Translations under genes and position numbers: made by a program
Notes under the pieces: model-generated
What the model was told of the DNA's origin: nothing
Databases searched by the model: none
What the model saw: the letters and a program-made list of their open reading frames with translations, nothing else
Shown here: positions 30,569-48,003 of the stretch, one piece after another
Position numbering within the stretch: position 1 is the stretch's first letter
Layout: each line of letters begins with the position of its first letter
Assembly (NCBI GenBank): GCA_012522575.1
Contig: JAAYKE010000133.1
Span: 1 to 48,003 of the forward strand
Origin: Armatimonadota bacterium
Lineage (GTDB): Bacteria; Armatimonadota; UBA5829
Reading direction: 5' to 3'
Length of the DNA stretch: 48,003 nucleotides

Positions 30569-30645
<77 letters not shown>

Positions 30646-30840: not shown

Positions 30841-33800
30841 TTACAGGCCGTATAGGGCGGCTACGCGCTCGTCGATCTCCCTCTCCCACTCCTCGCAGCC
30901 CTCTCCTCTCGCATCCAGACATTTCTGAACCAGACCCGATATCACCGCCATGTCGATTGACGAACAGCATGGCACAGGAAGGATCTTAGTGTATTGATGT
31001 TTGAAGCGCAGATATCCGCCTCTAATGGAAGCACATATCTGACGATAATATGTTTCAACAGAGGCGGAGTTGAGTAATCCAAGCAAAAATAGATCACTGC
31101 TCGCAATAAAACCAGCGGTGCACTCTACATAGTATCCCGAGTCTGCTAATGTAAAACGCGGCTCCTTGCAAATGTCGGGATGCACGATCTTAGGTTTGTC
31201 GAACTCATCGTAGTATTTGCAAGATCTCAGCTCCCACCATTGATCTCCTTTAGCTTGGCGTTTTTCCAATTGCGGCTGCCAGCGTTGAAGATGTTCCATT
31301 ATGGCAGGATAACGATTCATGTCAATCCCAACCTTGGTTGAAATTATCCAATTGTCCTCGCCTACAATCCGCCACTTTCTAACATCCTTTCCTACAATAA
31401 GCGGATTGATAATCTCAGCGCTTTTTGGGTCTGCGTCTATCAGTTCCTGCCTCTTCCCGGAGTTAATTATAAATGCCTTATTAAAGCCGATCAGTAATCC
31501 ATAATATATTTTACCGTTGACATATTCTCCTAGAGGCGTTCCTGCTTTGCGCATTTTCTCCAGAATATCTGCAGTTGTCGAATCCGCCAAAGTCCAGTTC
31601 GATCCCGCAAATGCGGATTCGGGAAGTTGGATACCCTGCCGGGTGGTTAGCTCGTGCACATTCGGGTATGGATCGTCAAGGGATTCAACATCTGTGAGAA
31701 CAGTACTCTGATGCGCTTCTCCTTTGCGGGCAATAAAAATCATCGCATAGGCAGTTGCATTTTGGAAAACAGGCAGATCTCCGAAATCGGTAATGCTCGT
31801 GACGGTGCAGTTGTCGGCGACGTGTTTTCTGAGCTTTTCCCCATAGCGTGCTTTTAACCATTTGTTGCTGCTGATAAATGACAACATACCGCCTTCTCTG
31901 AGCATCTGGATTGCACGCAGATAAAAATAGACATATAGATCGGCTTCGCTGCAGAAGAGGTCATCGTAGATTCCCTTTAGAGCGGGCTTGTCCGGCTTTA
32001 TCAATCGATGCCGAATGTAGGGCGGGTTTGCGACGATTATATCGAACCCGCCGGGTCGATTGTTCTGCGGATTGAATATCTCGGCGAAGTCCACCGACCA
32101 ATCGAATCGGATTTCATCTGTCTGCCTGCCGTCCATAAGGGCAATCTCCATGCGGAGATCGGAGATCGTCTTGTATAATTCGTGCTTTTGCGCGTTATGG
32201 GCGAGCAGATATTCCTCTTTGGCTTTCACATATTCATCGACTATGGTTTTGCGTAAATCGGTTGGCTGCGGGTTGGGACATATAACGCTGTCCCCTCGCT
32301 CTATCTTAAAGTCCAAGTTAGGCAGGGCAACCGCGTCGCGGGCATCGGGGTCGTCGATAGGATTTCTGGTGTCGTCAACCACCAGTGACAGCCACAGCCT
32401 CAGACGTGCGATGTTGACGGCGAACTGATCGCTGTCTACGCCGTAGAGGTTGTTTTGAATGATCTCCAGCTTGCGCTCATATACAGTGGCGGCGTCGACC
32501 TGCTTCACAGTGAACAGACAGGCGCGAAGGTCGAGAAGCTCGTGCAGCATTCCAAGCAGATATGCTCCGCTGCCGCACGCAGGGTCGCATACCCGCACGC
32601 TCTTTAACGCCTGCAAAGCGCGCTCCGGGTTGATGACGCCGGATGGGTCGTGCTCGTCTACGAATTTGGCGATGGCATCGCCTGAGGCTTCGGGCAACTG
32701 CTCGGACAGGTAGCCTTTGAGAGCCTCGCGGCACATAAAGGAGACAATGGGCTTGGGCGTGTAGTAGCTGCCGGTATCGTGGCGATTGGTTACCAGTTTT
32801 TCGAATATGCTGCCGAGCATCTCCGGGTCTACCGCCACATCGACGTCCAGTGGAGCGCTCTCGGTGATGGTAAAATTATATCCGCAAAACAGGTCGTTTA
32901 TGATGCGGTCGAACGCCCGGTTGTCTATCTGAACCGCGTCTTTGTGGTCGTCGACATCCTCGCACTGGAACAATCCGCCGTTTAGATATGGGACTTCTCC
33001 AATGGTGTCAACAACCTTTTTCTTTTCCTCGTCTTTAAAGGTCGGCGCAACTCCGGCAGCAGGCGAGCCGAGGCCGCAGAAGAAAAGCCAGTAGAGTCGA
33101 TCTCTGTAGAAGTTTTCCCCATTATCTATTGCCTCTTTATACAGCGTTTGGAGATAATTGGAGCTGCCCTTATACCTCAGCCACTTCTTTTTTTGTACGA
33201 ATTGCAGAAACAGCAGGCGGTTAAACAGGCGTATCGCAAACAGGCGTTTGTCGTTTTGCGTATGGCCGATGAATTGCTCTTCGACTGTTTTGAAGACAGC
33301 CTCATAGTTTCTGTAGAAGTCGTTGGATACCCGCTCTACGTCCCACGCGCTCAGCCAACGCTCGCGCATCGCATCCCAGTCCGGCTCATCTGACTTATTA
33401 AACTGCATCTTTAGCGCGGGCAGGTTGAACTCCAGCAGGGTTCTGGTTTCCTCCACACTGTCGGTCTCCCAACCGAATGTGCTCAACTTGGGCTGCTTGT
33501 TATCCCGCTGCTGGAAATGGGCGAAACTGAAACCGGAGTAGTTGTTGATTGCGCAGATGAAGATGATGCCTTGCAGGCTCTTGTTCTGGTATTGGCCTTG
33601 CGTGCGCATCTGTTCTCGAATGCGCCTTAGAATCTCGCGAAGCTCAGCTCTGCGGAACTGCGTTTCGAACTCGCAGAGCATAATGACAAATGGGTCGTCT
33701 GCTCCAAACGGGACGATCCGACTGACCTGCACTTTCGCTTCTGCGTTTGACGAAAGACGTGAGTCGGCGTAGGTGAAGGTGTCCTTATGATCCAGCGGCC

Positions 33801-33882
33801 AACTCAGAGTCTTATTGAGGAATGCGAAAAGGGTTTCTCGGTTGTGTATCGACGCCAGCGACTCTTTCGCAATGTAGGCCAT
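30841..33882 (-). CDS. Eco57I-like N6-adenine DNA methylase, large (operon A)
   Basis: 1013 residues from ATG 33882, whose A overlaps the helicase stop (TGATG) and has GGAG eight bases upstream. Motif I is VCDPACGSGAYLLG (about 431-444) and catalytic motif IV is IIVANPPYIRH (NPPY at 619-622), the order of gamma-class N6-adenine methylases. Residues 1-360 form a long N-terminal region with IVPFGADDPFVIMLCEFE then a helical module; no certain nuclease motif can be named. The C-terminal 300 residues probably recognise the DNA target (TaqI-like). Modification methylase in type IIG, BREX (PglX) or similar systems; here paired with a PLD-helicase. It ends against the repeats. Confidence 0.85.
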   Translation of the reverse strand: MAYIAKESLASIHNRETLFAFLNKTLSWPLDHKDTFTYADSRLSSNAEAKVQVSRIVPFGADDPFVIMLCEFETQFRRAELREILRRIREQMRTQGQYQNKSLQGIIFICAINNYSGFSFAHFQQRDNKQPKLSTFGWETDSVEETRTLLEFNLPALKMQFNKSDEPDWDAMRERWLSAWDVERVSNDFYRNYEAVFKTVEEQFIGHTQNDKRLFAIRLFNRLLFLQFVQKKKWLRYKGSSNYLQTLYKEAIDNGENFYRDRLYWLFFCGLGSPAAGVAPTFKDEEKKKVVDTIGEVPYLNGGLFQCEDVDDHKDAVQIDNRAFDRIINDLFCGYNFTITESAPLDVDVAVDPEMLGSIFEKLVTNRHDTGSYYTPKPIVSFMCREALKGYLSEQLPEASGDAIAKFVDEHDPSGVINPERALQALKSVRVCDPACGSGAYLLGMLHELLDLRACLFTVKQVDAATVYERKLEIIQNNLYGVDSDQFAVNIARLRLWLSLVVDDTRNPIDDPDARDAVALPNLDFKIERGDSVICPNPQPTDLRKTIVDEYVKAKEEYLLAHNAQKHELYKTISDLRMEIALMDGRQTDEIRFDWSVDFAEIFNPQNNRPGGFDIIVANPPYIRHRLIKPDKPALKGIYDDLFCSEADLYVYFYLRAIQMLREGGMLSFISSNKWLKARYGEKLRKHVADNCTVTSITDFGDLPVFQNATAYAMIFIARKGEAHQSTVLTDVESLDDPYPNVHELTTRQGIQLPESAFAGSNWTLADSTTADILEKMRKAGTPLGEYVNGKIYYGLLIGFNKAFIINSGKRQELIDADPKSAEIINPLIVGKDVRKWRIVGEDNWIISTKVGIDMNRYPAIMEHLQRWQPQLEKRQAKGDQWWELRSCKYYDEFDKPKIVHPDICKEPRFTLADSGYYVECTAGFIASSDLFLLGLLNSASVETYYRQICASIRGGYLRFKHQYTKILPVPCCSSIDMAVISGLVQKCLDARGEGCEEWEREIDERVAALYGL

Positions 33883-36800
33883 CAACGGACTCCTTTTTTC
33901 ATCTCCATCCAGCAGACGAGAGTGGAGACGATGGTGGACGGCAGCGATATGTCGGCAAAAGATGATCGGACAGCGGTTTTGAGGCGTTGTAACCCTCTGG
34001 ACAGCGTTGCCTCATCTGACGGCATAGCCGAATGCTCGCCCTCCACGGTTTTGGAAAGCATACCGAATATTTCTCCGGCTTCCAGCGTGATTCCTTTGTC
34101 GGTTTGCTCCATCGCCAAGACAGGACGGCCAATGACTGTCGCTAACTTCTCTTTGTCAAGCTCAGTAGCGCGCGGCGTGGGCTGCATTGTGAACAAAGCA
34201 AATAGACCATCAAGCGGCGCATTGTTCCATACTCCAAAAGCTCCGGGCGGCAAGGCGTCAAGCGTGGCAAGGGTTTTCTCGTCGGGCTTATCAAAGAGGC
34301 GTATATATTGCGTGGTCGCCTTATCCTGAGTGGTGACTTCGCCTTCATAGAACCTGTTGAACTCCTTCAGAGTGCCGTCAGGGTCGGTCGATTTGAAGAA
34401 CGATTCGTCGATGCCGATCGCCTTGCTGATCTTGAGCGTGCGATGCTCTACGGAATCTACCAGCCGGATGATCTCTTCGATTTCTGTGCAGGGCAATACG
34501 TTGTATATGGTGAACTCGTGTTTTTGCGGGGTGGTTTCCGCATCCAGACGACGGTCTACCCTGCCGATGCGCTGGATTAGGCGCACGGGGTTCCAGTGGA
34601 TGTCGTAGTTTAGAATGGCTCCCGCTTCCTGAAGATTGACTCCTTCGCTTAGAACATCGGTCGATATCAGCACATCGATTCTCTCTGGCACTGAGGGAGA
34701 TGAGGCCGCATCGTTGTAGCCGGGACAAAATGCATAGACTATCGCCGCTCGGGTTTTCTCGACTCGGGAGTCGATGCTGGCTATGTTGTATCCCTTGAGA
34801 CGATCGCGCAGTTCCATCGCAAGATATTCCGCCGTTCGCTGGCTCTGGGTGAACAGCAGTATGCGCTTGCCAGTCTTGAGTTCGTCCTCTATTTTCGGTA
34901 TGACTACTTTCAACTTTGGGTCGGGCTGCCTGCGCGCATCGATGATAGCTGCGTGTACCTCTTTGAGGAAGCCGAGGTCCTGGACAATATCGTCCCGCCA
35001 CCTATCGACGTCGAAACATTCCTGCGTGAAGCCTCTGAGCTTGCTATCCAACTTGCGCGCTCTAATAGCCTGCTCCAGCCATTGATCGACTTCGGCTCCG
35101 GAGGCGTCGAGCGCATCGCCGTCGACTGCTGCATCGATGTCGGGTTCGTCATCGGTGTCGGTATGGTGAATGAGTGTTCTGACCCATTGCTCGTGTTTGT
35201 CAGCGTATTTGTGTGCCTGGTCGCCTAATACGTGCTTGAGCCGGGCAATCAACCCGATGCCGATGCTTTGAATTATGCCCTGGAATGCCGCGGGGCTGCT
35301 TTCCAATTGTTTTAGAGCGTTTGCAAATACCAATCCGGCAAGGTGGACCTCGTCGCTGTATTGTTTGCTGGATGGCAGGGGTTGGCATCGGTATTGCTCG
35401 GTGAGGAAGGCCGCCAACTTGATGCCTTTTTTGGGGCCTTTCCTGAGGCAGGCAGGCAGGTCTGTTTTGCCGGCGCCTCTTATTTTTTCCAGCTCTCTTT
35501 TTACGTCTTCCAGATATTTGACGCCGGGACGAAACAGCTCGTGGGCGCGCTTGATGAGCTTGCTGTAATTCTCGCTTTCTTGTTCTATTTCATATTCGAT
35601 GCAAATCGGGCCGTGGCGTATCGGGAATCGGAGTTGCTCGCCGGTGGCCGCCGACAGGGCCTTGCAAGTGGCGCGGCTGCGCTGGATCATTACCTGTTCG
35701 AGGACCTGGTTCAGTGTTTTGTCGGGCGCTTCGATCGGCTTGAGCGTAAACTGGCCGGTGTAGTCCACTGTTTCTTCCTCTTTGTCCAGATTCCTTGCCG
35801 CTTTTCGGATTTGGTCTATTCCAAAACCGCCGATGCGTCCATCATCGTGCGTGATCAGCGCAAGTTGTGCGCTAATGTCCCTGTAGGAGGTGTTGATGGG
35901 AGTTGCCGTTAGCATTATGACCTTTTTGCGCTCCCCATTGACAGGGCCTATGATCTTGAACAGATTGACATAACGGTTCGCAGAGGTGGTGCGGAAGTTG
36001 TGGGATTCGTCGATCACAATCACGTTTGCACGACGCGAAAGACGCTCTACCTGCTTGCACTTGGACTCATTTGAATAATCCTCCGGGTCGAATCCGAAAT
36101 CGGTCATCGACAGTTTTCTGAAGTTGCCGAAGTCCTCGTCATAATCGCTCAGATGCCGCTTCAAATAGCCATTCCAACTGTTTTCGAGTATGTTTTTTGG
36201 AGCAATCAATAGAACATTGTTTGCTTGTTGGCAATAGTGTTCGATCAGGGCTAACGCGATAAAGCTCTTGCCCAGCCCTACTCCGTCTGAGATGAGAACG
36301 CCGTGCTCCCGCTCAAGTATCTTCAAGGATTGGAAGACTCCGTCAAGCTGGTGCTTGTCGAGCATTCTTATGAGTTCGCTCTCACGCGCGGTGGTGTCGC
36401 CCTGCCGATGCTGTCCCCAGGCGTATAGAGATTTTAGATAGAGATAATATGGGTCGTATAGCTCGATTTGTCGTCGAATCTCAGCCAGAAGATCATCTGT
36501 TACCACATCATCGACTGCTTCGTTCCATCGCTCGTCGTACCAGTTCCTGAGTTGGTTGGTCTGTTCTGGGGTCAGTTCAACGTTTAGCTCGATATTTTGC
36601 AGTAGTCCCGGCCTGGTAAAGTTGCCGCTTCCGATTACACCCATCTGCGCAGGGTGAATCGTTGGTCGTGTTATGAGATATGCTTTGGCATGAAATTTTT
36701 CTTTGGTGTAACAGCGGGCTTGCACGGCTCCGTTTGCAAACAGCTTTTCGATTTTTTTGAGTGGTGAAAGAAGAGACAGGTTTTCGCGCTGGGCCAAGAG

Positions 36801-37049
36801 ATCGGAATCCGAGACAGCGCGCAGTTTTTCCATCAACTGAACTCGCTGCCTGGCGCTGGCGTCATCGCCGAATAGAATTCGAACGCTGCTAAAGTCGGCA
36901 ACAACGTCGGCAAGTAGAAGCAGGGCCTCTAATGAAAAAAAAGCGGACGCAATCAACAGTTCATTACCGCCCGCCCCCATACGATCCAGACCAGCCAGAA
37001 GAGTGTTATCTTGACGATTATCTATAATGCTCAAATGAAGATCAGACAT
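33882..37049 (-). CDS. PLD-nuclease/SNF2-type helicase (operon A)
   Basis: 1055 residues from ATG 37049 with GGGGAG close upstream. Residues 1-160 are a PLD-like nuclease: one HxK half-site HAK (120-122) and GSGN (140-143), as in PLDc domains, so two subunits would be needed for a full active site. The helicase follows: Walker A DGVGLGKS (255-262), DESH (347-350), VIMLTATPINTS, and a C-terminal helicase lobe ending with the arginine-rich QRIGRVDRRLDAE. It probably translocates on DNA and may cut it. A TTGACT 17 bases upstream of CATATC (37105-37077) may be the promoter. Partner to the coupled methylase. Confidence 0.85.
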   Translation of the reverse strand: MSDLHLSIIDNRQDNTLLAGLDRMGAGGNELLIASAFFSLEALLLLADVVADFSSVRILFGDDASARQRVQLMEKLRAVSDSDLLAQRENLSLLSPLKKIEKLFANGAVQARCYTKEKFHAKAYLITRPTIHPAQMGVIGSGNFTRPGLLQNIELNVELTPEQTNQLRNWYDERWNEAVDDVVTDDLLAEIRRQIELYDPYYLYLKSLYAWGQHRQGDTTARESELIRMLDKHQLDGVFQSLKILEREHGVLISDGVGLGKSFIALALIEHYCQQANNVLLIAPKNILENSWNGYLKRHLSDYDEDFGNFRKLSMTDFGFDPEDYSNESKCKQVERLSRRANVIVIDESHNFRTTSANRYVNLFKIIGPVNGERKKVIMLTATPINTSYRDISAQLALITHDDGRIGGFGIDQIRKAARNLDKEEETVDYTGQFTLKPIEAPDKTLNQVLEQVMIQRSRATCKALSAATGEQLRFPIRHGPICIEYEIEQESENYSKLIKRAHELFRPGVKYLEDVKRELEKIRGAGKTDLPACLRKGPKKGIKLAAFLTEQYRCQPLPSSKQYSDEVHLAGLVFANALKQLESSPAAFQGIIQSIGIGLIARLKHVLGDQAHKYADKHEQWVRTLIHHTDTDDEPDIDAAVDGDALDASGAEVDQWLEQAIRARKLDSKLRGFTQECFDVDRWRDDIVQDLGFLKEVHAAIIDARRQPDPKLKVVIPKIEDELKTGKRILLFTQSQRTAEYLAMELRDRLKGYNIASIDSRVEKTRAAIVYAFCPGYNDAASSPSVPERIDVLISTDVLSEGVNLQEAGAILNYDIHWNPVRLIQRIGRVDRRLDAETTPQKHEFTIYNVLPCTEIEEIIRLVDSVEHRTLKISKAIGIDESFFKSTDPDGTLKEFNRFYEGEVTTQDKATTQYIRLFDKPDEKTLATLDALPPGAFGVWNNAPLDGLFALFTMQPTPRATELDKEKLATVIGRPVLAMEQTDKGITLEAGEIFGMLSKTVEGEHSAMPSDEATLSRGLQRLKTAVRSSFADISLPSTIVSTLVCWMEMKKGVR

Positions 37050-37444
37050 TTTTCTCCCCACAACAACAGCCGATGAGATATGACAGACTTAAATATAAGA
37101 GTCAATATCCCTTCTGTTGAGATATCAGGAGTTGGGATTGGTAAGAGGAATTATTCTACGTCGGCAGTAAATACCTGGCGGCGCCAAGGGGACAGGAGGG
37201 ATCTCGTGTAAACCACGTTCAATTCCAGGCGAAATATTTGGGAAAACGGAGGTTTCGGGTGAAGGTGTGGGAGTGAGGGGGGGAGTTGAATAATTGAATT
37301 TATGTGTACTTAATGGGTAGACTTTCACGGTGGTAGCTGCCAACACGTGAAGACCCGGCCTACTAACTAATCAACGAATCGTACTCATTAAGCATCGACT
37401 GTTACACACTGCCGCCTGCAGCAACAGGCGGCTCAACAGGAGTT

Positions 37445-37751: not shown

Positions 37752-40436
37752 TTAGTCTATGGTAACGACTGCATCCGTCGTCTGATACTGACCTACCAAA
37801 TGACTCAGCGTCGCGCTGGCACCTACCGCATCGTGTGGAATCAGCACATACTTCCATGGTTTGCCGCCGTGCTCCGATTCATGCTGGGTGGCATAATGGC
37901 ACCAGAGACAAGCGGCATCTGTCTTCGCCCGAACATCCATGTCTTCCAGTTCAGATGCTCTTTTAGTCTCCACAATTAGCTTTTCACCTTCTGTCTCGAC
38001 TACAAAGTCCGGCTCATAAAGATGCCCGTCTTTATAATCAATTCGAAACTGGCCCCGAGCAGGCTTGAACCATTTCAACTCTTCTCTGCAGTCCTCAAGT
38101 ACTATGGCGAAGCGGCGTTCGGTATCATTGTCAAATTTTTGTGTGGGATAAAGGCAGCGCCGGAAGCCACCGAAGAGCATTCCGCGCATATATAAGCGGT
38201 CATCGACCGGCGCACGGAAAGGCTTAATGTCTTGTCCGGCCAGCGCTGCGAAGCTGTTAGACCTCAAGGTTTCGAAGCCTTTGCTGACGTTGGCCTCGTA
38301 GCCGACTGCCTTCTCCCAATAGTGCGACTGCATCTGTGTATGGATGAATTCCGCGAGGGATCGCTGATGATATTGCAGCACATTGGAAAGCTCCTCCTCG
38401 TCCTTGAGATAGGACTGGAGATGCGTCACCATTTGGCTTGCGAGGTCGTATAGCAAGTCGGAATGATCATCATAGCTGATATCATCGTAATCCATCAGCG
38501 CCCGGACAAGATAATCTTCAGACCGCTCTTCGTGAATAACACCATCACCACTGATAAGTGACATACGCTCGTTTGACTGCAGGTGGTGGATGAGAATATC
38601 CCTGGCAACCGGCTGTGGGCGTATTCCGCTTATATCCAGAGTAAATGGATTGAATCCGCAGGATACTTCACCTTTGGGCACAACAATGATTCGTGGGATA
38701 TCGATGGAGTTCTCGATGAATGTGTCGATTGTCTTGGCGACGATATCGGCCACGTCCGCTTTCTCAGCAATTCCCTCGAACTGAGCTTGCGCCGGGGCGC
38801 ACACAGCCGACACCTGTTGAATTATCTGTTCTTGAACTTCCTCTGCTCGAAGGTTCGCTGATCTGGGCAACTTCTCAAAACGTCGGATGACTTCCAATGT
38901 AGCCTGCGCAACCTGGCGTTCAGCGGGGGATTCGAAAAGTAATTCCTGCTCTGCTGCAATAGCATCACTGGATGTGACACGGGTAACAAAGACCGGATTC
39001 ACGACTACCGTCTCCCGGCGTTCATCCGGGATATCACGACCAATGACGACGCCGGTGCGGATGATTGAGTTCGGATTGTTGGCTTCATCAATAATTTCTT
39101 GGAACTTATCGTGTGCAACAATTGTGAGACGGTCGACGGCTGCGACTCCTGTCCTCTTCCCGTAAGGAAGGCGCAGACCACGCCCTATAGTCTGGTGTAC
39201 CAAAATTTCAGCTTTAGCTGCTCTAAGAGGGACTATGGTATACAGGTTGTTTACATCCCAGCCCTCTTTGAGCTTATTTACGTGAATGACTATCTCAGTC
39301 GGTTCTTGAGTGCTCTCCACCTGAAGCAGGCGCTCGATAGTATCATCACGCTCTTCACCGCGCTGATTGGAGTGAACGGTAATCACGCGGTTTTCATATC
39401 GCCCATCGAAGAACGATTCGTCCCGAATCACCTTCTCAAGCGCATCCGCGTGCGTCGTATCCTGTGCAACCACCAACATGAAAGGCTTCACGATTGGCTG
39501 TTCATTCTGGCGGGCGTATACTTCTAGCTGGACTTTTGTATCTTCGTGAACTCGCACACCATCTTCCAGCTTGAGTCGTTCCAACTGCTCTTGTGTATAA
39601 TTGGATGCATTGAAGTTTTCACGTGTAGCGACTGCCGGCTCTTTAACGAAACCATCCTGCATCGCCGCTGATAGAGGATATCTGTAAATAATATTTTTGA
39701 ATGGAACAGGACCGCTCGGGCTTTCTTTCTGAGGTGTTGCCGTCAGTTCAAGACCGAGAATTGGCTTGAGTTCATTGATCGCGTTGATGCCTGCGGTAGC
39801 TCGGTATCTGTGCGATTCATCCATCATTAGAACAAGATCGTTCAAGTCGGAAAGGTAGTCGAAGTAGCTCTGGCCTATGTACTCCGAAAGCCGCTTGATT
39901 CTGGGTGCGCTGCCGCCTCTGACCTCGGAGTTGATCTTGGATATATTGAATATGTTGATGTGTACGACGTCACTGCCGAACAGAGTGACGCCTCTGATGC
40001 CACGCCCACTTTCGTAATTGTCCCCGGTAATGATCTCTGGCGGATTCTGGGCGAACTCGGCGATACCCTGAAATACATACTTAGGATTGCCGGGAGTGAA
40101 GTCGCCGATCAGCTTATTGTAAATCGTAAGGTTAGGAGCCAATACGAAGAAATGGCGAATGCCCTTGGCTTGAGAGAGATAAGATATGAAAGCGCCCATC
40201 AGTCGGGTTTTGCCGACGCCGGTGGCAAGAGCGAAGCACAGCGATGGAAAGTCACGCTCGAAGTCTTCAATGCCCGATTCTGGGAATTGCTGTTTGATTG
40301 CTTCCAAAGCTGCTGAAACATCCTGATCTTTGTCAAGCGGCAGCAGATCGGCAATTTCAGCCAAAATGTCCAGTGATGTCTTTTGGGGCGGTCGGAGGCT
40401 GAGGCGTTGGCTTATTGCGTTTGCTATCCTGTTCAT
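37752..40436 (-). CDS. Type III restriction endonuclease subunit (Res), helicase-nuclease
   Basis: 894 residues. Walker A ATGVGKT (71-77), DESH (206-209), LELTATPQ and VHQTIGRGLRLPYGKR (arginine-rich motif VI) are intact. The C-terminus has a PD-(D/E)xK nuclease: EPDFVVETEGEKLIVETKRA at about 808-827, with Asp810, Glu823 and Lys825. In type III systems Res moves or diffuses along DNA after Mod recognition and cuts about 25 bases away. The start codon overlaps the mod stop by 4 bases (ATGA). Last gene of operon B. Confidence 0.92.
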   Translation of the reverse strand: MNRIANAISQRLSLRPPQKTSLDILAEIADLLPLDKDQDVSAALEAIKQQFPESGIEDFERDFPSLCFALATGVGKTRLMGAFISYLSQAKGIRHFFVLAPNLTIYNKLIGDFTPGNPKYVFQGIAEFAQNPPEIITGDNYESGRGIRGVTLFGSDVVHINIFNISKINSEVRGGSAPRIKRLSEYIGQSYFDYLSDLNDLVLMMDESHRYRATAGINAINELKPILGLELTATPQKESPSGPVPFKNIIYRYPLSAAMQDGFVKEPAVATRENFNASNYTQEQLERLKLEDGVRVHEDTKVQLEVYARQNEQPIVKPFMLVVAQDTTHADALEKVIRDESFFDGRYENRVITVHSNQRGEERDDTIERLLQVESTQEPTEIVIHVNKLKEGWDVNNLYTIVPLRAAKAEILVHQTIGRGLRLPYGKRTGVAAVDRLTIVAHDKFQEIIDEANNPNSIIRTGVVIGRDIPDERRETVVVNPVFVTRVTSSDAIAAEQELLFESPAERQVAQATLEVIRRFEKLPRSANLRAEEVQEQIIQQVSAVCAPAQAQFEGIAEKADVADIVAKTIDTFIENSIDIPRIIVVPKGEVSCGFNPFTLDISGIRPQPVARDILIHHLQSNERMSLISGDGVIHEERSEDYLVRALMDYDDISYDDHSDLLYDLASQMVTHLQSYLKDEEELSNVLQYHQRSLAEFIHTQMQSHYWEKAVGYEANVSKGFETLRSNSFAALAGQDIKPFRAPVDDRLYMRGMLFGGFRRCLYPTQKFDNDTERRFAIVLEDCREELKWFKPARGQFRIDYKDGHLYEPDFVVETEGEKLIVETKRASELEDMDVRAKTDAACLWCHYATQHESEHGGKPWKYVLIPHDAVGASATLSHLVGQYQTTDAVVTID

Positions 40437-42202
40437 ACCCCTACCTCGTCGTCGAAGAGATTCATTGTACCTGTGTCCAGCTTCGTTCGCTTGCCGTCGT
40501 TTGAGGATTGCACTTCTTTGCCGACTTCCGACGGCGCTGGCGGCAGGACGGATATCTGCAGGCTGTAATCATCTCGGCCGTATTCGCACTTATTCAAAAC
40601 GGCCTTGGGTATCTTTTTAATCGTAAGGTTATGAAACTCGTCCTGATTGGCGCGAAACGCAGTGCAGCAGATAAGAAGTGTGCGTTGTTCGCCAACTTCC
40701 TCGCTTATTTGCGCAAGTTGATTGCGGCTGAGTGTTTGCGTAGTAATATATATAAAATCGGATTCGGTGGAGCGCCCGTGCTGCCAATAGACCGCATCGC
40801 TGGGGTCGAACTCGAAGTTCAGGTGTTTGCACATTGCCTCCGCGAGCATTTCGGCATTATATTCTTTGTTGATGATAAGGTTGCCCCATTTGTCTTTTTG
40901 CAGCAGGGACGGCGCCAGCCTGTAATACCGGAACCCTCCTCCGCCTTTCCAGTCAACAGCTTTGCTGATGCCGCCCTGGTCTTCGCCATCTATCACTTTG
41001 CGCAAACGCGGGATTATGTGTGTATGGCAATGTTCGCCAAGCTCGACCATGATCCATCGTCGTCCCATCTTGTGGGCAACAGCACCGGTCGTGCCGGAAC
41101 CAGCAAAGGAATCTAATACCCAATCACCCGGCTCTGTAGAGAGATCGAAAACGCGCTTGATTAGACCTTCCGGTTTTTTGCCCTTTGGAAAATGTACCCC
41201 GCCCTCCTTATGCAGATTGTTTGATAGAATATCATCCCAAATCGTTGTGAGCGGTTCGCCTGACACGTACTTGCCATCAATCATTTTCAGTTTATCGCTG
41301 TAGAATAGTATTCGCTCTCCGCCGATGAAATACATGTTGGAGTGCCCATCACGCTCCAGCAGGAATATTCTGGATGGTTTGGCTACTGATCGGTCGATCA
41401 TTGCTCTCACCTGAGCACCTACGCCGTCGTAGTTTGGACGAGCCGTACGAATCACACGATCTGCGTTCTGCAAAACAAAGTCACTCAGCAGAGACTCAAA
41501 CTCGGCTTTCTTTCGCAGAGTCTTGACATCAATTCTACCCTCTCGTGCTAACGCCTGCGTAAGAGGCACAAATCGCCATTGTTGATAAGGATCTTCCTTA
41601 TTTTCAATGATCTTTGTGTACCGCTTGTCCCGCTCCCTAGCTGTGTAAACTCGATTGCACTTCCATTTGGATTTATCCCTGACATACATGAGCACGAAGT
41701 TTGAGGTACTGACACAGCCTGGATTAATGGCTTTATGGCCGGTTGCTGATCCTTGTTTGAAAGTGATAACAGACACTCTATTATCGCGGCCGAACACCTC
41801 ATCAAGCAATACAATAAGATACCCAAGCTCCACATCGTCTATATGCACGAAGATTGTGCCTTCCTGATGCAGCAGGCGACTCAGCAGTTCCAGTCGATCA
41901 CGTATTAGTGACAGCCATGTTGAGTGCTCGACACCATCTTCATAATATTCGGATACGTCCGGGATGTTGAAAGGCGGGTCAATATATATGCACTTGATCT
42001 TCCCTGCGAATTCTTGCTCCAGAGCCTTTAGCGCAAGGAGGTTATCGCCGAAGATAAGACGGTTATCAAAGATGTCGCTATCCGACACTCGATGCCGGGC
42101 GTGATACGACAACTCCGGATCCTCCAATAGAATCCTAGGCTCCAGCCTCGGCCGGTTTTCTTTTCCTATCCAGGTTAGTTCGAGTTTGGTATGGTTGGGC
42201 AT
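40433..42202 (-). CDS. Type III modification methylase (Mod), N6-adenine, beta class
   Basis: 589 residues from ATG 42202 (AGGAA upstream; the frame runs 18 codons further but those overlap the ATPase gene). Catalytic motif IV DPPF (75-78) precedes the SAM motif DSFAGSGTTG (364-373), the beta-class order of type III Mod. The middle 200 residues form the target-recognition domain. Mod defines the recognition site for both methylation and cleavage. It lies 8 bases after the ATPase stop and overlaps res by 4. Confidence 0.93.
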   Translation of the reverse strand: MPNHTKLELTWIGKENRPRLEPRILLEDPELSYHARHRVSDSDIFDNRLIFGDNLLALKALEQEFAGKIKCIYIDPPFNIPDVSEYYEDGVEHSTWLSLIRDRLELLSRLLHQEGTIFVHIDDVELGYLIVLLDEVFGRDNRVSVITFKQGSATGHKAINPGCVSTSNFVLMYVRDKSKWKCNRVYTARERDKRYTKIIENKEDPYQQWRFVPLTQALAREGRIDVKTLRKKAEFESLLSDFVLQNADRVIRTARPNYDGVGAQVRAMIDRSVAKPSRIFLLERDGHSNMYFIGGERILFYSDKLKMIDGKYVSGEPLTTIWDDILSNNLHKEGGVHFPKGKKPEGLIKRVFDLSTEPGDWVLDSFAGSGTTGAVAHKMGRRWIMVELGEHCHTHIIPRLRKVIDGEDQGGISKAVDWKGGGGFRYYRLAPSLLQKDKWGNLIINKEYNAEMLAEAMCKHLNFEFDPSDAVYWQHGRSTESDFIYITTQTLSRNQLAQISEEVGEQRTLLICCTAFRANQDEFHNLTIKKIPKAVLNKCEYGRDDYSLQISVLPPAPSEVGKEVQSSNDGKRTKLDTGTMNLFDDEVGV

Positions 42203-42210
42203 GAGTATTC

Positions 42211-44583
42211 CTACGGGCGTTCCAAAGGGCGCATTTCGACGCCACCGCATTGACATCTGTAGTGATCTCCCGCTTGGCGCCTAGCTAGACTGCCACAAGT
42301 GGGGCAAACGAGCGCATTTACGAAATCTAAGGTATTCTTGCCAAACGCCTCCACATCGGTGTTGGCAATTTCCGAACCATCCACATTGAAATGGCAGCCG
42401 ACTTGGTTTCTGATAAACGCAAGTCTGCTAACCTTGTCATACAATGGCTTAATCTGAATCTCTACAGCAGGAGGTTGTACACCATTTTCCTTTGGCGGCT
42501 GCCGTTTCACGATTAGCACCTTCGAAAGCTTCGCGACACTGTCGAGCAGTTCACCGAGTGTAAAGTCGCCGCTTCTACGGTGTGGCACCGCGCAGCCATA
42601 TAGCATCGACACATGATCCAGCACAGCCTCAAGTAGTATGCCTGATTCTGCGGCCACAGACTGACGAGCAAATGGTTCGCTGGCAAGCTTGACTTTCAGC
42701 TCGTCCACTTGCAGTTTCGTATTATACATACGGACTCCGTTGTTCCTAGACCATCGATGCAGCTCGACTAACTGTACGGCACGCCCTGGTGCTTGTGATA
42801 GTCGGTAACGGTCGCGCCACTGACGAAAATGCGTTGTGATAATGAGATGGTTGAAACTACTGCTTTCGTCCGCCAGAAGGTCAATTATCCGAGTCAAGTG
42901 CACGGCATCCACCGATGTGAATATGTCATCCAGCACGACGATGGCATCACCGTTACTGTAGTGTTTTGCTACGGCAAGAAACATCGCAAAACCAAGTGTA
43001 TCAAGGTGAGATTCGCTAAAGTAGGCCTGCGGCGGAACCTCGGCCGCACCAAGGAATGTGGCGTCTTGGTACAAGGAACCTTTCTTTTTGTCGTCCAGAT
43101 ATAGGCGCAAGTCACCAAGTGATTCCCCAGGATGCAATTTCTCGTATATGCGGTTACACTCTGCCGATACTTCATTCAATATATTTTGACTGAACTTCAA
43201 TCGTTTGCTCCGCACAATCTCAGATGCCTTTTCTAGCCCTTCCGATACGGCTTTAGTGTCTCGAACCTTCTCTTCATTCTCTAGCATGCGTTCGTAGTGC
43301 AAACTGACGGCGTTGAACTGTTCAATATCCGAAGATAGCTGTTTTTCAATCATCTGCATTTTCGCTTTATTTCCGCTCAAAGCTGATAAAGTCGCGGCTA
43401 CCTGCTTGATATCCATCGCTTTACCGTTCTCGTCCATATCTGTTTCGGGAACAGATGATTGAGACACAGGACAATCATCAATCTGTGCTTTGCACAATGC
43501 ATCCAGTGATTGGAAGAGTTTACCTGCCTCGAGTAAAACATCCTCTGTAGTGCTTGCAACCTGTTTTTTAGCCAGTTCAACATCACGTTCTGCTGACTGT
43601 AGTCGTTCATTGATAGTACTCAGGTTAGTCATGGCGGAAAGTCGAGCGTTTATCCGATTCAACAAATCAGCCGCAACAATTGGGTTCTCGCAAAGAGGAC
43701 AAGCCTTTCTGTCGTTATGAGCCGCAATAAATATCTTCCCCTTTTCCAGTATATCGACGATATCTACACCATCTTCGCCCTCTATTGTCGGTGCCTTTGC
43801 TGCATCTTTTTGGGCATTAGCAAGCACATTTCTCGCGGCTGAAAGGTCCGTGTTATATTTCTCTAATCTCGCTACCTCGGTTTCACACTTGTTCAGTTGC
43901 TGTAGCAGTTCACTGATAGCTGAATGCTGTGCTTTCACGACTGTCATGTCTGCCGCAGACTTCGCAGCAGCCCAACCCACAGCACTGATAGAAGGAGAAT
44001 CAGGTTTGCCCTCAGCCTCCCAGAGTTTCTGGAGATAGTCTTCTGCTTCCACCTTCGCCTTGACAGCCTCATCATAACGCTGTTTGGCAACACGTGCGGC
44101 GTCTATCAATGCATCCTCGCATCTTTCTATGCCCTCTACATCTATGAATCTTTTGAGTTCTCCAAACCTATCTGCCGGCCGTGCTTCAATGAGGCGCAGC
44201 AATTGACTTCTTCTAAGAATATGCGCAGATGGATTAGGAGTAGGGCCAACGGTTACTATGTCTCGGCCACTCATGTTTCCCTTCCACGCGTTACCACCCA
44301 AATGGACCTCAACCTGGAGTTCCGTTTGTTCACTTCCCAAGGACGGCAGGTGCTTCTGTATGGTTGTGGAGCTTCTCTCGGCAACTGATCCACCAGACTT
44401 GTTGCAAACAAAATCTATAGCATCGACAATGGTTGACTTGCCGGTGCCATTTTCACCAAAGATTACAGTTACCGGTTTGTTGGTGTCGAAGTTCAACTCA
44501 GTCTTGGCGGTTGCACCCCTGAATTTGGTCAGGCATATCTTATTGATGCGCTTGCTACTATCAGGCTTGCTTGTGTTTAACAT
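42211..44583 (-). CDS. Rad50/RloC-like ATPase with CPLC hook, HEPN-like motif and zinc ribbon
   Basis: 790 residues. I start at ATG 44583, with GGAGG six bases upstream; the frame runs 23 codons further but those overlap the 65-residue gene. Walker A is GENGTGKS (43-50). A long helical region (about 170-480) contains CPLC (295-298), like the zinc hook of Rad50 and RloC. Walker B is in AIVVLDDIFTSVDAVHL. After the ATPase lobes comes a helical module with RLAFIRNQVGCHF, an R-x5-H pattern (Arg725, His731) typical of HEPN ribonucleases, then a zinc ribbon (CPTC, CQCGG; 760-779). RloC is a hook-containing ATPase linked to anticodon nuclease activity and restriction loci. RNase activity here is inference. 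Confidence 0.8.
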   Translation of the reverse strand: MLNTSKPDSSKRINKICLTKFRGATAKTELNFDTNKPVTVIFGENGTGKSTIVDAIDFVCNKSGGSVAERSSTTIQKHLPSLGSEQTELQVEVHLGGNAWKGNMSGRDIVTVGPTPNPSAHILRRSQLLRLIEARPADRFGELKRFIDVEGIERCEDALIDAARVAKQRYDEAVKAKVEAEDYLQKLWEAEGKPDSPSISAVGWAAAKSAADMTVVKAQHSAISELLQQLNKCETEVARLEKYNTDLSAARNVLANAQKDAAKAPTIEGEDGVDIVDILEKGKIFIAAHNDRKACPLCENPIVAADLLNRINARLSAMTNLSTINERLQSAERDVELAKKQVASTTEDVLLEAGKLFQSLDALCKAQIDDCPVSQSSVPETDMDENGKAMDIKQVAATLSALSGNKAKMQMIEKQLSSDIEQFNAVSLHYERMLENEEKVRDTKAVSEGLEKASEIVRSKRLKFSQNILNEVSAECNRIYEKLHPGESLGDLRLYLDDKKKGSLYQDATFLGAAEVPPQAYFSESHLDTLGFAMFLAVAKHYSNGDAIVVLDDIFTSVDAVHLTRIIDLLADESSSFNHLIITTHFRQWRDRYRLSQAPGRAVQLVELHRWSRNNGVRMYNTKLQVDELKVKLASEPFARQSVAAESGILLEAVLDHVSMLYGCAVPHRRSGDFTLGELLDSVAKLSKVLIVKRQPPKENGVQPPAVEIQIKPLYDKVSRLAFIRNQVGCHFNVDGSEIANTDVEAFGKNTLDFVNALVCPTCGSLARRQAGDHYRCQCGGVEMRPLERP

Positions 44584-44758
44584 CAAGTGCCTCCTCAATC
44601 CAGCGGTTCCAGTCTTCTGCTTTCGCTGTTCCTGTCGTGAGTTTCTTGACAATATCCGCCTCTCTGGTATTGATGACCAGTTCCGCGTCCTTAAGAGCTT
44701 TTGCGACTACTACTGCAAGCTCTTCATTCGGTGTTTTTAATACAATCTCATCGGACAT
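44561..44758 (-). CDS. Small protein of operon B, 65 residues
   Basis: 65 residues with AAAGGTGG six bases before ATG 44758. It overlaps the ATPase start by 23 bases and follows the helicase stop by 17, so expression is coupled. The sequence (MSDEIVLKTPNEELAVVVAK, then helical, ending DWNRWIEEALDVKHKQA) is mostly helical with a mild acidic character and no known motif. It may be a structural or regulatory partner of the ATPase or helicase. Confidence 0.75.
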   Translation of the reverse strand: MSDEIVLKTPNEELAVVVAKALKDAELVINTREADIVKKLTTGTAKAEDWNRWIEEALDVKHKQA

Positions 44759-44775
44759 TTAGTCCACCTTTCCGG

Positions 44776-47637
44776 CTAGGTTACCTGCCATCTCACATTG
44801 AACAACACAGAACTACTAACTTCTTGCTGCAACCTTGCCTCAACCTTGGTAATCAACTGCTCTTTGCTCTCATCAATTTTATCTTGCGCTGCAAACAACT
44901 CACGGCGCTTCCTGTTGCGCTGGGATTCCAGATTTTTCTTTTCCTTGTGAAGGGCAATCTTATCTTCGAGTGCCGCTGTTATTTTGGCATCCCTTGAAAC
45001 TTGCTTGATCTGCAGATCAAGATCCTTAAGTTCTGTTTCCAGGCCGTGCTTCAGGTCTTCCGCCCAACGGTCCAATTTTTCTATCTCTTCATCGAAAAAC
45101 TTGTTGTTACGCTCTGCAATGCCGCTAATTACTGACTCCTGCAAACCGGTGGAGATATCGGCAAGCGATGCACCGACTTCATCGGAAATAGCAACCTCGC
45201 CAGCCAACTTGCCGGGAACACTAAATAGCTTTTCGCAAGCATCCGGCAACATGGAGTTGCCATTGTCATCGATACCGGCAAGAATCATTACATCTTCATC
45301 TTCCAGCGCCGAGACTGTGAGCTTGCTTACCTGCAACCACCCTGATTTCCCAACAAGCTCTTTGATAAGTCCCGCGTGTTCGGGCCAGTTCGTATAATCG
45401 AAAACGATATGAACCGGCGGCAACGTCCGTTGCTTAGCTCGATCGATAATAGCTTCGGCGAGTTGACCGCCATAACGATAAGGTCTCAGGCCGTCCACAC
45501 TGTGTCCCGGTGCAAGAAACTGATAACGCCCGGTCTGAAAATCCGGCAAACCATCTGGAGCGCTCTTGATGTGAAACTGTAGGTCTGAATCGTTGAACTC
45601 CGCATTGTGTGAAAGCTCTGACTTTGTGAGTTCCCAAAAGTATCGCTCCACCTTCCCAAGAAACGCAGTGCTCTCTTCGCTGTTTATTCGGAGCCTATTG
45701 CGCACGTCCTCATCGAAGTTTTCCAAAAGCTTGGTCCGAGTGTCGGCCATACGAGCTTGAATCTCTTCGTCAAGCTCAAGTCTCAACTGATCGAACGCGC
45801 AGTTTATCTCACCTTCCGTGCGACAGCGTTGGTAGATATCAGCAATTCGGCGTTCAAAATCCATACCCGACTCAAGCGCACCAAGCACTTCATCTGACGA
45901 ACCAAAAACACCTTGGAACAGGCGGAACTTCTCGTCCAGAAGTTCAAATACACGCCGGTCGGCTGCATTGCTGCGATTCAGGAAGTTAATGACCACGACG
46001 TCATATTCCTGCTTGTATCTGTGACATCTACCTATTCTCTGTTCTATCCGCTGAGGGTTCCAAGGCAGGTCGTAGTTAATCACAAGAGAACAGAACTGGA
46101 GATTAATCCCTTCGGCAGCGGCTTCAGTTGCTATAAGTATATCAGAGTGGTCTCGAAAATGCTCCACGAGTGCGACGCGGATATCGACTACCTTGCTGCC
46201 GGTGACGACCGGTTCGCCCTTGTGCAACTCGACCCACGCCTTATATATCTCTCGGCTGCGATCGTCGGAGTTGACTCCGTTGATAGTGAGAACATTGCCA
46301 TCGTAGCCATTGTTACTGAGAAGAGAGAACAAATACTCCTGTGTACGCCGTGATTCGGTGAAGATAACAGCCTTTCGGTTTGCGCCGAGTTCCTCTAATT
46401 TCTCAAATCCTTGTCTAAGCGCTACAAGTAGTGCCTGTCCTTTTGCGTTGATAGTGATAGATTTTGCAAGGTCGCCGAATTCAGCGAGTTCCTTTATCTC
46501 GGCTAGAATCTCCTGCTTTTCAGAGGATTCCCGGCTTTCAAGTTCAATATTTGTCGCTGTATCCGGATCCGCCCATTCCTCGGATATTTCCTCAAGAGCC
46601 TCGAAATCTTCTGAGGCAGATTTTAATACATCCTGGTGCTTACCTTCAAGGCGGGACTTCAGTGATTCCAACGTAGCCGCAATTGCAAACGTGGAGGATG
46701 CCAACAGTTTCCGTAAAACCAACGTCACCAAGCGGCGCTGGCTGATGGGAAGTGCGTGAAGCTCGTCCTTGCTGAGATAACTGGAAACTTGATCATAAAG
46801 GAGTTGTTCTTCATTAGTCGGCGTAAAGTCCTGAGTTATCGGAATGCGATTCGTAAAACGAACATATTCTGTTACTTGCCGTCGAAGCGTGCGTTGACAA
46901 ATCGGCTTCAGCCGCAAACGAAGTTCGTTTAGTTGCCGGTTTTCGATTGGCCCGTGCATATAGCGAGCCTTGAATGCATTTATATCACCGAAGAGATGTT
47001 CATCAATAAAACTAACCAGACCATACAACTCCAATAACGAATTCTGCAGAGGGGTAGCTGTGAGCAATAGAAGTGGCCTATTCGATATAGACTTTCTGAT
47101 GGAGGTTGCTATCCGATTGCCGGGCTTATACACATTACGGAGTCGATGCGCCTCATCGACAACAACCAGATCCCAAGGTACGCCAGCGATTTCACGATTC
47201 TTGCCCCATGCGAAGTGATACGAACAAATAACCACCTTGTTATCCTGCAAGATCGCCGATTCCCCACGTTTTGCTTTCGCCTTATATTCGCGAGAATCTA
47301 CAATTACAGAATCGATATGAAACTTGTCTGCCAGTTCTTGCGCCCACTGTTTACGCAGTATTGTGGGGGCAATAATCAGGATGCGTCGCTTATGCTCACA
47401 CCAAAGTTGGCTGATAATCAAGCCTGCTTCAATAGTCTTTCCTAGACCTACCTCATCGGCGAAGATTGCCCCACGAGATAATGGAGAACGAAATGCAAAA
47501 AGAGCGGCATCCAGTTGATGTGGGTTCAGGTCGACCATTGCGCTAAAAATCGATGGCCCTAACTTGGCAAGATTATCGGAGGAATTCCTCTTGGTTAATT
47601 CGTGAGCGTAGTAAGCTGCGTGATATGGAGTTGACAT
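44776..47637 (-). CDS. SNF2-like helicase with C-terminal coiled coil (first gene of operon B)
   Basis: 953 residues from ATG 47637; the frame extends 32 codons further to 47733, but those residues are unlike the family. Motor motifs: Walker A DEVGLGKT (61-68), DEAH (161-164), LLLTATPLQNS, and a second lobe with NPQRIEQRIGRCHRYKQEYD. The last 110 residues are a coiled coil (EIEKLDRWAEDLKHGLETE, then KEKKNLESQRNRKRRE). No nuclease motif is seen. It probably moves DNA-bound complexes. Upstream Shine-Dalgarno is weak; TATAAT lies about 40 bases before the start. Confidence 0.9.
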   Translation of the reverse strand: MSTPYHAAYYAHELTKRNSSDNLAKLGPSIFSAMVDLNPHQLDAALFAFRSPLSRGAIFADEVGLGKTIEAGLIISQLWCEHKRRILIIAPTILRKQWAQELADKFHIDSVIVDSREYKAKAKRGESAILQDNKVVICSYHFAWGKNREIAGVPWDLVVVDEAHRLRNVYKPGNRIATSIRKSISNRPLLLLTATPLQNSLLELYGLVSFIDEHLFGDINAFKARYMHGPIENRQLNELRLRLKPICQRTLRRQVTEYVRFTNRIPITQDFTPTNEEQLLYDQVSSYLSKDELHALPISQRRLVTLVLRKLLASSTFAIAATLESLKSRLEGKHQDVLKSASEDFEALEEISEEWADPDTATNIELESRESSEKQEILAEIKELAEFGDLAKSITINAKGQALLVALRQGFEKLEELGANRKAVIFTESRRTQEYLFSLLSNNGYDGNVLTINGVNSDDRSREIYKAWVELHKGEPVVTGSKVVDIRVALVEHFRDHSDILIATEAAAEGINLQFCSLVINYDLPWNPQRIEQRIGRCHRYKQEYDVVVINFLNRSNAADRRVFELLDEKFRLFQGVFGSSDEVLGALESGMDFERRIADIYQRCRTEGEINCAFDQLRLELDEEIQARMADTRTKLLENFDEDVRNRLRINSEESTAFLGKVERYFWELTKSELSHNAEFNDSDLQFHIKSAPDGLPDFQTGRYQFLAPGHSVDGLRPYRYGGQLAEAIIDRAKQRTLPPVHIVFDYTNWPEHAGLIKELVGKSGWLQVSKLTVSALEDEDVMILAGIDDNGNSMLPDACEKLFSVPGKLAGEVAISDEVGASLADISTGLQESVISGIAERNNKFFDEEIEKLDRWAEDLKHGLETELKDLDLQIKQVSRDAKITAALEDKIALHKEKKNLESQRNRKRRELFAAQDKIDESKEQLITKVEARLQQEVSSSVLFNVRWQVT

Positions 47638-47791: not shown

Positions 47792-48003
47792 CGGTTCACC
47801 CCCACATGCGTGGGGAATACACTCTGGTTGTGTGTGTCATTTTAGTTCTCCCCGGTTCACCCCCACATGCGTGGGGAATACATTCAGGGGCTGCGCGATG
47901 GCGGCTCAATCGACGGTTCACCCCCACATGCGTGGGGAATACTCGACCTCAGCAGCGCCCTTGGTGTTGAGCGCCGGTTCACCCCCACATGCGTGGGGAA
48001 TAC
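47792..48003 (-). CRISPR. Type I-E-like CRISPR array (runs off the right edge)
   Basis: Four identical 29-base repeats begin at 47792, 47853, 47914 and 47975, with three 32-base spacers (47821-47852, 47882-47913, 47943-47974). The repeat begins CGGTTCACCCCCACATGCG and ends TGGGGAATAC on the + strand; it has a GC-rich dyad. By analogy with E. coli, the transcribed form is the reverse complement, starting GTATTCCCC and ending GTGAACCG (the crRNA 5' handle). That makes transcription leftward, towards operon B, and puts the visible end at the leader-distal side. Spacer and repeat lengths fit subtype I-E. No cas gene is in the window. Confidence 0.95.

Follow-up and report, generated by a model that had tools for sequence, protein, structure and literature searches.

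A type III restriction operon of an Armatimonadota bacterium with a small-protein and ATPase gene pair in a recurrent slot between snf2 and mod

The five-gene operon described here lies on a contig of an Armatimonadota bacterium (JAAYKE010000133.1, assembly GCA_012522575.1; 3.06-Mb genome in 189 contigs), and the window that was analysed is this whole contig of 48003 bases. Five open reading frames (ORFs), all on the minus strand, encode in order an SNF2-family helicase (snf2), a small protein, a Rad50-like ATPase, and the Mod (mod) and Res (res) subunits of a type III restriction system (Table 1). From snf2 to res, they are joined by a 17-base gap, a 23-base overlap, an 8-base gap and a 4-base overlap. 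These five genes are a type III host with docked cargo and no fixed machine. Across loci, the position between snf2 and mod is filled by the pair of small-protein and ATPase genes, by other systems or by nothing, and therefore the pair is regarded as cargo in a recurrent slot. It is somewhat probable that the operon is composite, with an autonomous two-gene module for second-line defence inserted into a type III snf2-mod-res host. The snf2-mod-res layer is already known, and embedded defences are a known theme. As far as was searched, the new elements are the repeated use of the slot by whole systems, and the pair of small protein and putative zinc-hook ATPase. Nothing was found in the literature searched on the five-gene operon, the pair or a type III cargo slot, and part of this may be covered by a 2024 preprint of Payne or by Krishnan 2020.

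The contents of the slot were compared in 26 loci in which snf2 is followed by mod: the window, L014, L015, L019, L020, L044, L048-L054, L093-L100, L102, L104-L106 and L109. The loci were hand-picked for variety from longer hit lists and not every slot gene was scanned; because of this choice, the proportions given here are no estimate of frequency. In 8 of them (L044, L093, L094, L096, L097, L098, L102 and L109), Mod is only distantly related to that of the window. L104 and L106 represent one type (85% DNA identity), and L102 and L109 another. The set excludes L012 (BREX-5), L022, L034, L055 and L023 (contig ends), L043 (no mod), L047 (snf2 not within 3 kb), L107 (mod and res missing) and L108 (a near copy of L105).

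As seen in this set, the slot is empty in 6 of the 26 loci (L049, L093, L096, L098, L102 and L109), holds the small-protein and ATPase pair in another 6 (window, L014, L015, L019, L020 and L044) and carries other genes in the remaining 14. Defence families are present in half of these 14. According to PADLOC, SIR2 and HerA are complete in L052 (536 and 821 bits) and L094 (398 and 790 bits), IetA and IetS are complete in L104 (350 and 1206 bits), AbiD is found in L095 and L105, and AbiU in L105. Record annotation additionally places ietAS in L106 and AIPR/VapC in L100; both L104 and L106 are type III operons of E. coli chromosomes. Other genes can also accompany the pair itself, as in L014, where KwaA and KwaB (Kiwa; 183 and 410 bits in PADLOC) stand beside it. 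A second position, between mod and res, contains RhuM (L014 and L050), Schlafen-AlbA (L015) and GmrSD-like proteins (L093 and L094).

Gene content and order are modular, and exchange of the slot contents is observed between homologous loci. On a Snf2 tree with 27 labelled rows, the distribution of the pair requires at least 4 changes of state. A single clade for the 8 pair-bearing Snf2 proteins was rejected by the approximately unbiased test (p 3.1e-6), as was a clade of the L020 and L023 Snf2 proteins (p 1.3e-6), the ATPases of which group at 100; these tests were run on quick trees, and the groups were partly picked after the loci had been seen. L095 on a Salmonella plasmid and L105 on an E. 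coli chromosome share 96.9% DNA identity over snf2 and over the 3' half of mod plus res. In their interior, only one of the two has AIPR, the centre of mod is unalignable, and the similarity between the Abi genes is 66%. The near-identical ends and differing interior indicate that cargo and target recognition domain both change. Downstream of an L105-type Snf2 gene (99.3%) in E. coli MB46 lie insertion sequences, Abi genes and DUF262, and the 13 kb read contains neither mod nor res. A search of the window for recombination marks at the slot found no direct repeats of at least 16 bases between 41900 and 45000.

The pair also exists apart from this host. When 84,980 species genomes were searched with two peptide patterns, 13 loci were recovered, one of which was only a P-loop match. 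Searching plasmids with the ATPase by tblastn gave five full-length matches (32-35%) in Hymenobacter and Fibrella, the others being distant or partial. Close ATPase loci were defined as a set of 22, leaving out L026 (P-loop only), L013 (short, hookless), the distant L010-L012, the partial plasmid hits H8, H9, H11-H20 and H22-H30, and the close hit H5; L006, L017 and L018 within the set are near copies of each other. Ten of these loci have snf2 and/or mod-res, 11 are solo, and L021, which consists of the end of an ATPase gene with no mod after it, was not placed in either class. In the close plasmid loci L006-L009, the two genes of the pair overlap, and a blastp search of about 20 kb detected no snf2, mod or res homologue. 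Five Hymenobacter loci contain the pair alone, the contig of L017 ending with the ATPase.

The prediction that the five-gene order would be conserved elsewhere was borne out. The order snf2-small-ATPase-mod-res with Mod and Res of the window type was found in four loci from Proteobacteria, namely a Gallionellaceae (L014), a Chromatiaceae (L015), a Methylotenera (L019, where the contig ends within res) and a Deltaproteobacteria genome (L020). Extra genes separate snf2 from the small gene in L014 and L019, and mod from res in L014 and L015. L044, from the window's own phylum, has snf2-small-ATPase with a different Mod and Res. Among partial loci, L022 reads ATPase-mod-res and L023 reads snf2-AIPR-small-ATPase up to the contig end, and it can be seen that AbiU and AIPR accompany the pair.

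The window's phylum was searched in 291 genomes. Mod matches at E <= 1e-100 came from 11 of them and ATPase matches at E <= 1e-30 from 5, and at these thresholds the window is the only member of both sets. Seven of the 10 other Mod loci of the phylum have snf2 upstream and lack the pair. The others are L055, which starts with the last 81 codons of an ATPase gene (65% identical), L034, which is cut before snf2, and L047, without snf2 in 3 kb. The pair is solo in L045 and L046 of the same phylum. In the haloarchaeon Halorhabdus tiamatea, a distant pair (L012, 8802-11466), with an upstream gene of 68 residues, is flanked by pglX and pglZ of a BREX-5 locus. Searching viral contigs with only two peptide patterns gave 33 loci; none was taken to be related to the pair, a result that argues only weakly for absence. 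In most of these loci the best segment spans 30-90 residues around the P-loop, and the longest one, in L063, extends over residues 13-280 at 24%.

Two observations weigh against the reading of the operon as host and cargo, each pointing to a different alternative. At L043 (3212-8005), snf2, small gene and ATPase gene are followed by a gene for an HD-domain phosphohydrolase, without mod or res. This is the only such case, and the arrangement could mean that Snf2, small protein and ATPase act together. It would agree with one integrated system, in which these three proteins form a sensor and motor complex controlling Mod-Res, as would the different Mod and Res of L044 and the conservation of the snf2-small-ATPase order across phyla. 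However, snf2-mod-res without the pair is common, the pair stands alone in 11 of the 22 close loci, and unrelated complete systems occupy the same position. An integrated system is therefore considered unlikely, and the same three facts speak against the proposal in the first-pass annotation of one larger antiphage complex.

The second observation is that, as far as their genes were scanned, the other half of the 14 loci with other cargo matched no defence family. L048 contains HTH and M78, L050 HTH/DUF433, L054 DUF3800 and L097 an SF1 helicase, and the scanned genes of L051, L053 and L099 matched no family. Such contents, and cargo so highly varied and exchanged, would be expected from neutral hitch-hiking, in which the snf2-mod gap would do no more than accept insertions and provide a promoter, while cargo and restriction do not interact. 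On the other hand, defence families in 7 of the 14 exceed what we would expect of a neutral gap, a judgement made without control gaps. Hitch-hiking is thus given a low probability. A more far-reaching reading of the host and cargo arrangement is advanced tentatively: the snf2-mod interval may be a general docking site for interchangeable complete defences, where Snf2 would couple failure of restriction to licensing of the docked system, and the pair may be an unnamed two-gene defence ranging from bacteria to haloarchaea.

The host layer can be assigned with known families. The window Snf2 contains the motifs GLGKT, DEAH and IGRCHR and matches Pfam SNF2-rel_dom (3.1e-35). Mod has DPPF at residues 75-78 preceding DSFAGSGTT at residues 364-372, the order of a beta-class amino-methyltransferase; it matches MTase_III in PADLOC (655 bits) and N6_N4_Mtase in Pfam (8.5e-36), and its solved relatives in PDB include Mod 6k0w and EcoP15I Mod 4zcf. 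The DPPF motif is compatible with N4-methylcytosine (m4C) or N6-methyladenine. Res, which adjoins Mod, combines the SF2 helicase motifs GVGKT, DESH and IGRGLR with a PD-ExK nuclease motif (PDFV...ETK), and matches REase_III in PADLOC (794.5 bits), ResIII in Pfam (2.6e-20) and EcoP15I Res (1.6e-6). The first-pass annotation had named the five genes, their four junctions and the Mod and Res motifs, and rechecking of ORFs and motifs confirmed all of these; its reading of mod and res as type III, of the first gene as an SNF2 motor and of the two others as genes for a small protein and a Rad50/RloC-like ATPase also agrees with the present results, and the operon is very probably defensive.

Table 1. 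Coordinates of the operon, its slot and the ATPase motifs in the window
Feature	Position	Strand	Details
SNF2-family helicase/ATPase, DrmD-like, first gene	44776..47637	-	953 aa, ATG at 47637
Small protein	44561..44758	-	65 aa; 23-base overlap with ATPase gene
Rad50/SMC-type ABC ATPase with coiled coil, CPxC hook and C-terminal domain	42211..44583	-	790 aa
Type III Mod methyltransferase	40433..42202	-	589 aa; DPPF motif IV, DSFAGSGTT motif I
Type III Res helicase-nuclease	37752..40436	-	894 aa; GVGKT, DESH, IGRGLR, PD...ExK
Cargo slot between snf2 and mod, filled here by small protein and ATPase	42203..44775	-	comparison across 26 loci
CPLC, putative zinc hook at coiled-coil break (aa 295-298)	43690..43701	-	motif and model
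RNQVGCH (aa 725-731), HEPN-like Rx4-6H motif, C-terminal domain	42391..42411	-	motif only
CPTC...CQC, probable zinc ribbon (aa 760-779)	42247..42306	-	C-terminal cysteines

The Snf2 gene had been taken as an addition to an ordinary type III system, but this combination is not new. A third, helicase-like gene located 5' of mod was described for type III systems of more than 500 genomes, with m4C modification (Murray 2021, PMC8259958). In that report the third gene is dispensable for methylation and absent from partly purified Eco86II, and the role of the extra helicase-like ATPase is stated as unknown. The window Snf2 agrees with this description, being helicase-like, encoded 5' of mod and not a homologue of Res. 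As in Eco86II and BspHIV (PMC8259958), the Snf2-family gene, mod and res lie on one strand. GAGCC systems were given for E. coli NCTC86, B4103-1 and F9792, the latter two by prediction (PMC8259958), and each of these strains carries an L102-type Snf2 at 98.8% DNA identity; the L102 Snf2 is 43% identical to that of the window. The snf2-mod-res layer is already known, since a third helicase-like gene has been described and the strains concerned carry the same Snf2 family.

In NCTC86, the SNF2 gene is located at 5046030-5048921, followed by genes for a 1040-residue methyltransferase and a DEAD/DEAH helicase. This locus is very probably Eco86II, the strain's own system. The tRNA-Leu region, considered as another site, holds no SNF2. 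Nothing lies between snf2 and mod in NCTC86, whereas the window operon has a two-gene insert, and the NCTC86 Mod is much longer than the window Mod and only a distant relative. Snf2 homologues with E <= 1e-100 are present in 46 plasmid records. Among 5426 E. coli genomes, the L102-type Snf2 was found in 146 (144 with at least 80% of the gene), the L104-type Snf2 in 72, and the L105-type operon in 30 (24 over at least 80%). Record annotation of L105, L107 and L108 calls the small HTH gene preceding the E. coli snf2 MAD1 (methylation-associated defence system), a label that may mislead, given that two of these loci, L105 and L108, belong to type III restriction.

The first-pass annotation had also compared the operon to the helicase-methylase-ATPase (Hma) class. 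In PADLOC, the window Snf2 resembles DrmD (708 bits), and HmaA (173 bits) and DrmA (130 bits) more weakly, which is what an Hma or DISARM variant might show. Against NCBIfam, the score for DISARM_DrmD_b is 712.6 bits, below the cut-off of 950, and that of the other DrmD model is 259, below a cut-off of 610. HmaC is a DUF499 ATPase (PMC12839542), and DUF499 is not among all 12 Pfam matches of the window ATPase (E up to 0.1). Moreover, Mod and Res are of type III, as their PADLOC scores indicate, and none of the other four genes is drmA, drmB or drmC. Both Hma and DISARM were therefore rejected, and a variant of either is highly improbable. The annotation's expectation that known models would not define the operon held, at family level, for the cargo: none of PADLOC, Pfam and NCBIfam matches the small protein or closely fits the ATPase.

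The ATPase carries the motifs GENGTGKS, LDD and CPLC. It matches Pfam AAA_23 (1e-12), and AAA_13 with 23.6 bits over 63 residues (cut-off 36). Its structural model (predicted local distance difference test score (pLDDT) 78.5, predicted template modelling score 0.48) consists of SMC/Rad50 heads and a coiled coil broken at CPLC. Rad50 (1.1e-9) and LmuB (4e-9) were retrieved with this model by Foldseek, and the top seven VIA rows are SMC/Rad50 heads (Z 21.1-22.4, root-mean-square deviation 4.7-5.5, 338-357 residues). CPxC is present at residues 282-296 in 18 of 18 close homologues covering that part. RloC has a zinc hook, as the window ATPase putatively does. After the coiled coil, a C-terminal helical region bears RNxVGxH, and RN..G.H was found in 19 of the 20 close loci that possess the C-terminal domain. 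This domain is possibly of HEPN type, judging by the Rx4-6H motif as defined in PMC3710099.

Several points run counter to that assignment and to a general role of the C-terminal domain. RN..G.H is missing in L024, the exception among the 20, and in the distant homologues L010-L012, and the zinc-ribbon cysteines are missing in L020 and L023. No Pfam HEPN match above chance was obtained for the domain and only one PDB sequence row (E 0.66) was returned, while the whole-model fold search, dominated by the ATPase heads, is no test of its fold. The L045 and L046 ATPases are shorter and end before the domain; since they lack it entirely, it cannot be the sole effector. A 581-residue ATPase of a Streptomyces plasmid (L013, 8062-9807) ends with the C-terminal motif RNAVGAH and is without a CPxC hook.

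The small protein is modelled as three helices (residues 10-24, 30-42 and 47-64; pLDDT 85.7), and a Foldseek search gave no fold match, the best row having an E of 3.7. Its gene lies directly upstream of the ATPase gene in 19 of 19 close loci covering the upstream DNA, and 7 of these 19 small genes are outside the set used to build the profile, suggesting that ATPase and small protein are partners. Searching plasmids with the small protein by tblastn gave no matches; plasmid homologues exist, so this search is insensitive. Its embedding in the slot makes the pair a strong candidate for a defence system in its own right.

Comparison with known systems gives several partial likenesses. PrrC is an ABC-ATPase anticodon nuclease lodged in the type I operon PrrI, with a C-terminal Rx4-6H motif (PMC3710099). 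The window ATPase shares with PrrC and RloC an SbcC/Rad50-like ATPase and a C-terminal Rx4-6H domain, and with PrrC a place in a restriction operon (PMC3710099). Unlike these proteins, it has a separate small partner gene, a weak partial match to AAA_13 and, in most members, an extra zinc ribbon, and on present evidence an identity with RloC is unproven. CxC ABC-ATPase/Pbe systems (PMC10853773) also have a zinc-hook ATPase with a coiled coil of about 400 residues beside a fast-evolving small-protein gene, and sometimes include methylases and a helicase. However, PbeC models score at most 29 bits on the window ATPase, and the DndE-like gene and HKD-helicase are not in the window operon. LmuB of Lamassu is the top PADLOC match of the ATPase (81 bits, partial coverage), and one LmuB model matches 10 of 10 members of the ATPase family. 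LmuA was not among the PADLOC matches listed for the five operon proteins (the best 25 for three of them), and for lack of this nuclease the operon is not assigned to Lamassu. PDC and HEC models fit the pair poorly, the best among those listed being PDC-S06 (35 bits). Nested defences have been described in type I operons, namely TgvAB and DarTG2 (PMC11411939, PMC12255303), whereas the window host is a type III system with Snf2 and its slot lies between snf2 and mod. BREX auxiliary effectors are a precedent for a layered design (PMC12839542), and a report from 2008 points to MORC ATPases that share restriction operons with helicases (PMC2292703).

For the trigger, effector activity and defence function of the pair, we infer the following scheme. 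Through Mod and Res, host sites would be methylated and foreign DNA without this mark would be cut. An ATPase dimer with the small protein would monitor abnormal DNA, such as free ends or replication intermediates, or an attacked restriction complex. The RNxVGxH domain, possibly a HEPN-type RNase, would then be released and lead to a growth stop. The pair would stand as a second line behind restriction, as PrrC does behind its type I system, and by this analogy is perhaps abortive.

The surroundings of the operon contain further defence genes. A CRISPR (clustered regularly interspaced short palindromic repeats) array occupies 47792-48003, with four copies of a 29-base repeat of type I-E appearance at a period of 61 reaching the contig end; its near edge precedes the snf2 start by about 155 bases. 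On the same strand as the operon, a second defence pair consists of an Eco57I/IIG-like methyltransferase gene (30841-33885) and a PLD-domain SF2 helicase gene (33882-37061), which overlap by 4 bases and adjoin a tRNA-Met at 30569-30645. The region from the tRNA-Met to the contig end looks like a defence island.

Embedding has been described as a route to new systems (PMC12988326), and the snf2-mod slot is usable for finding them in this way. Additionally, a slot beside Snf2 provides a handle on the role of this protein, through the question of whether the cargo needs Snf2. The small-protein and ATPase pair itself is a concrete candidate with testable motifs.

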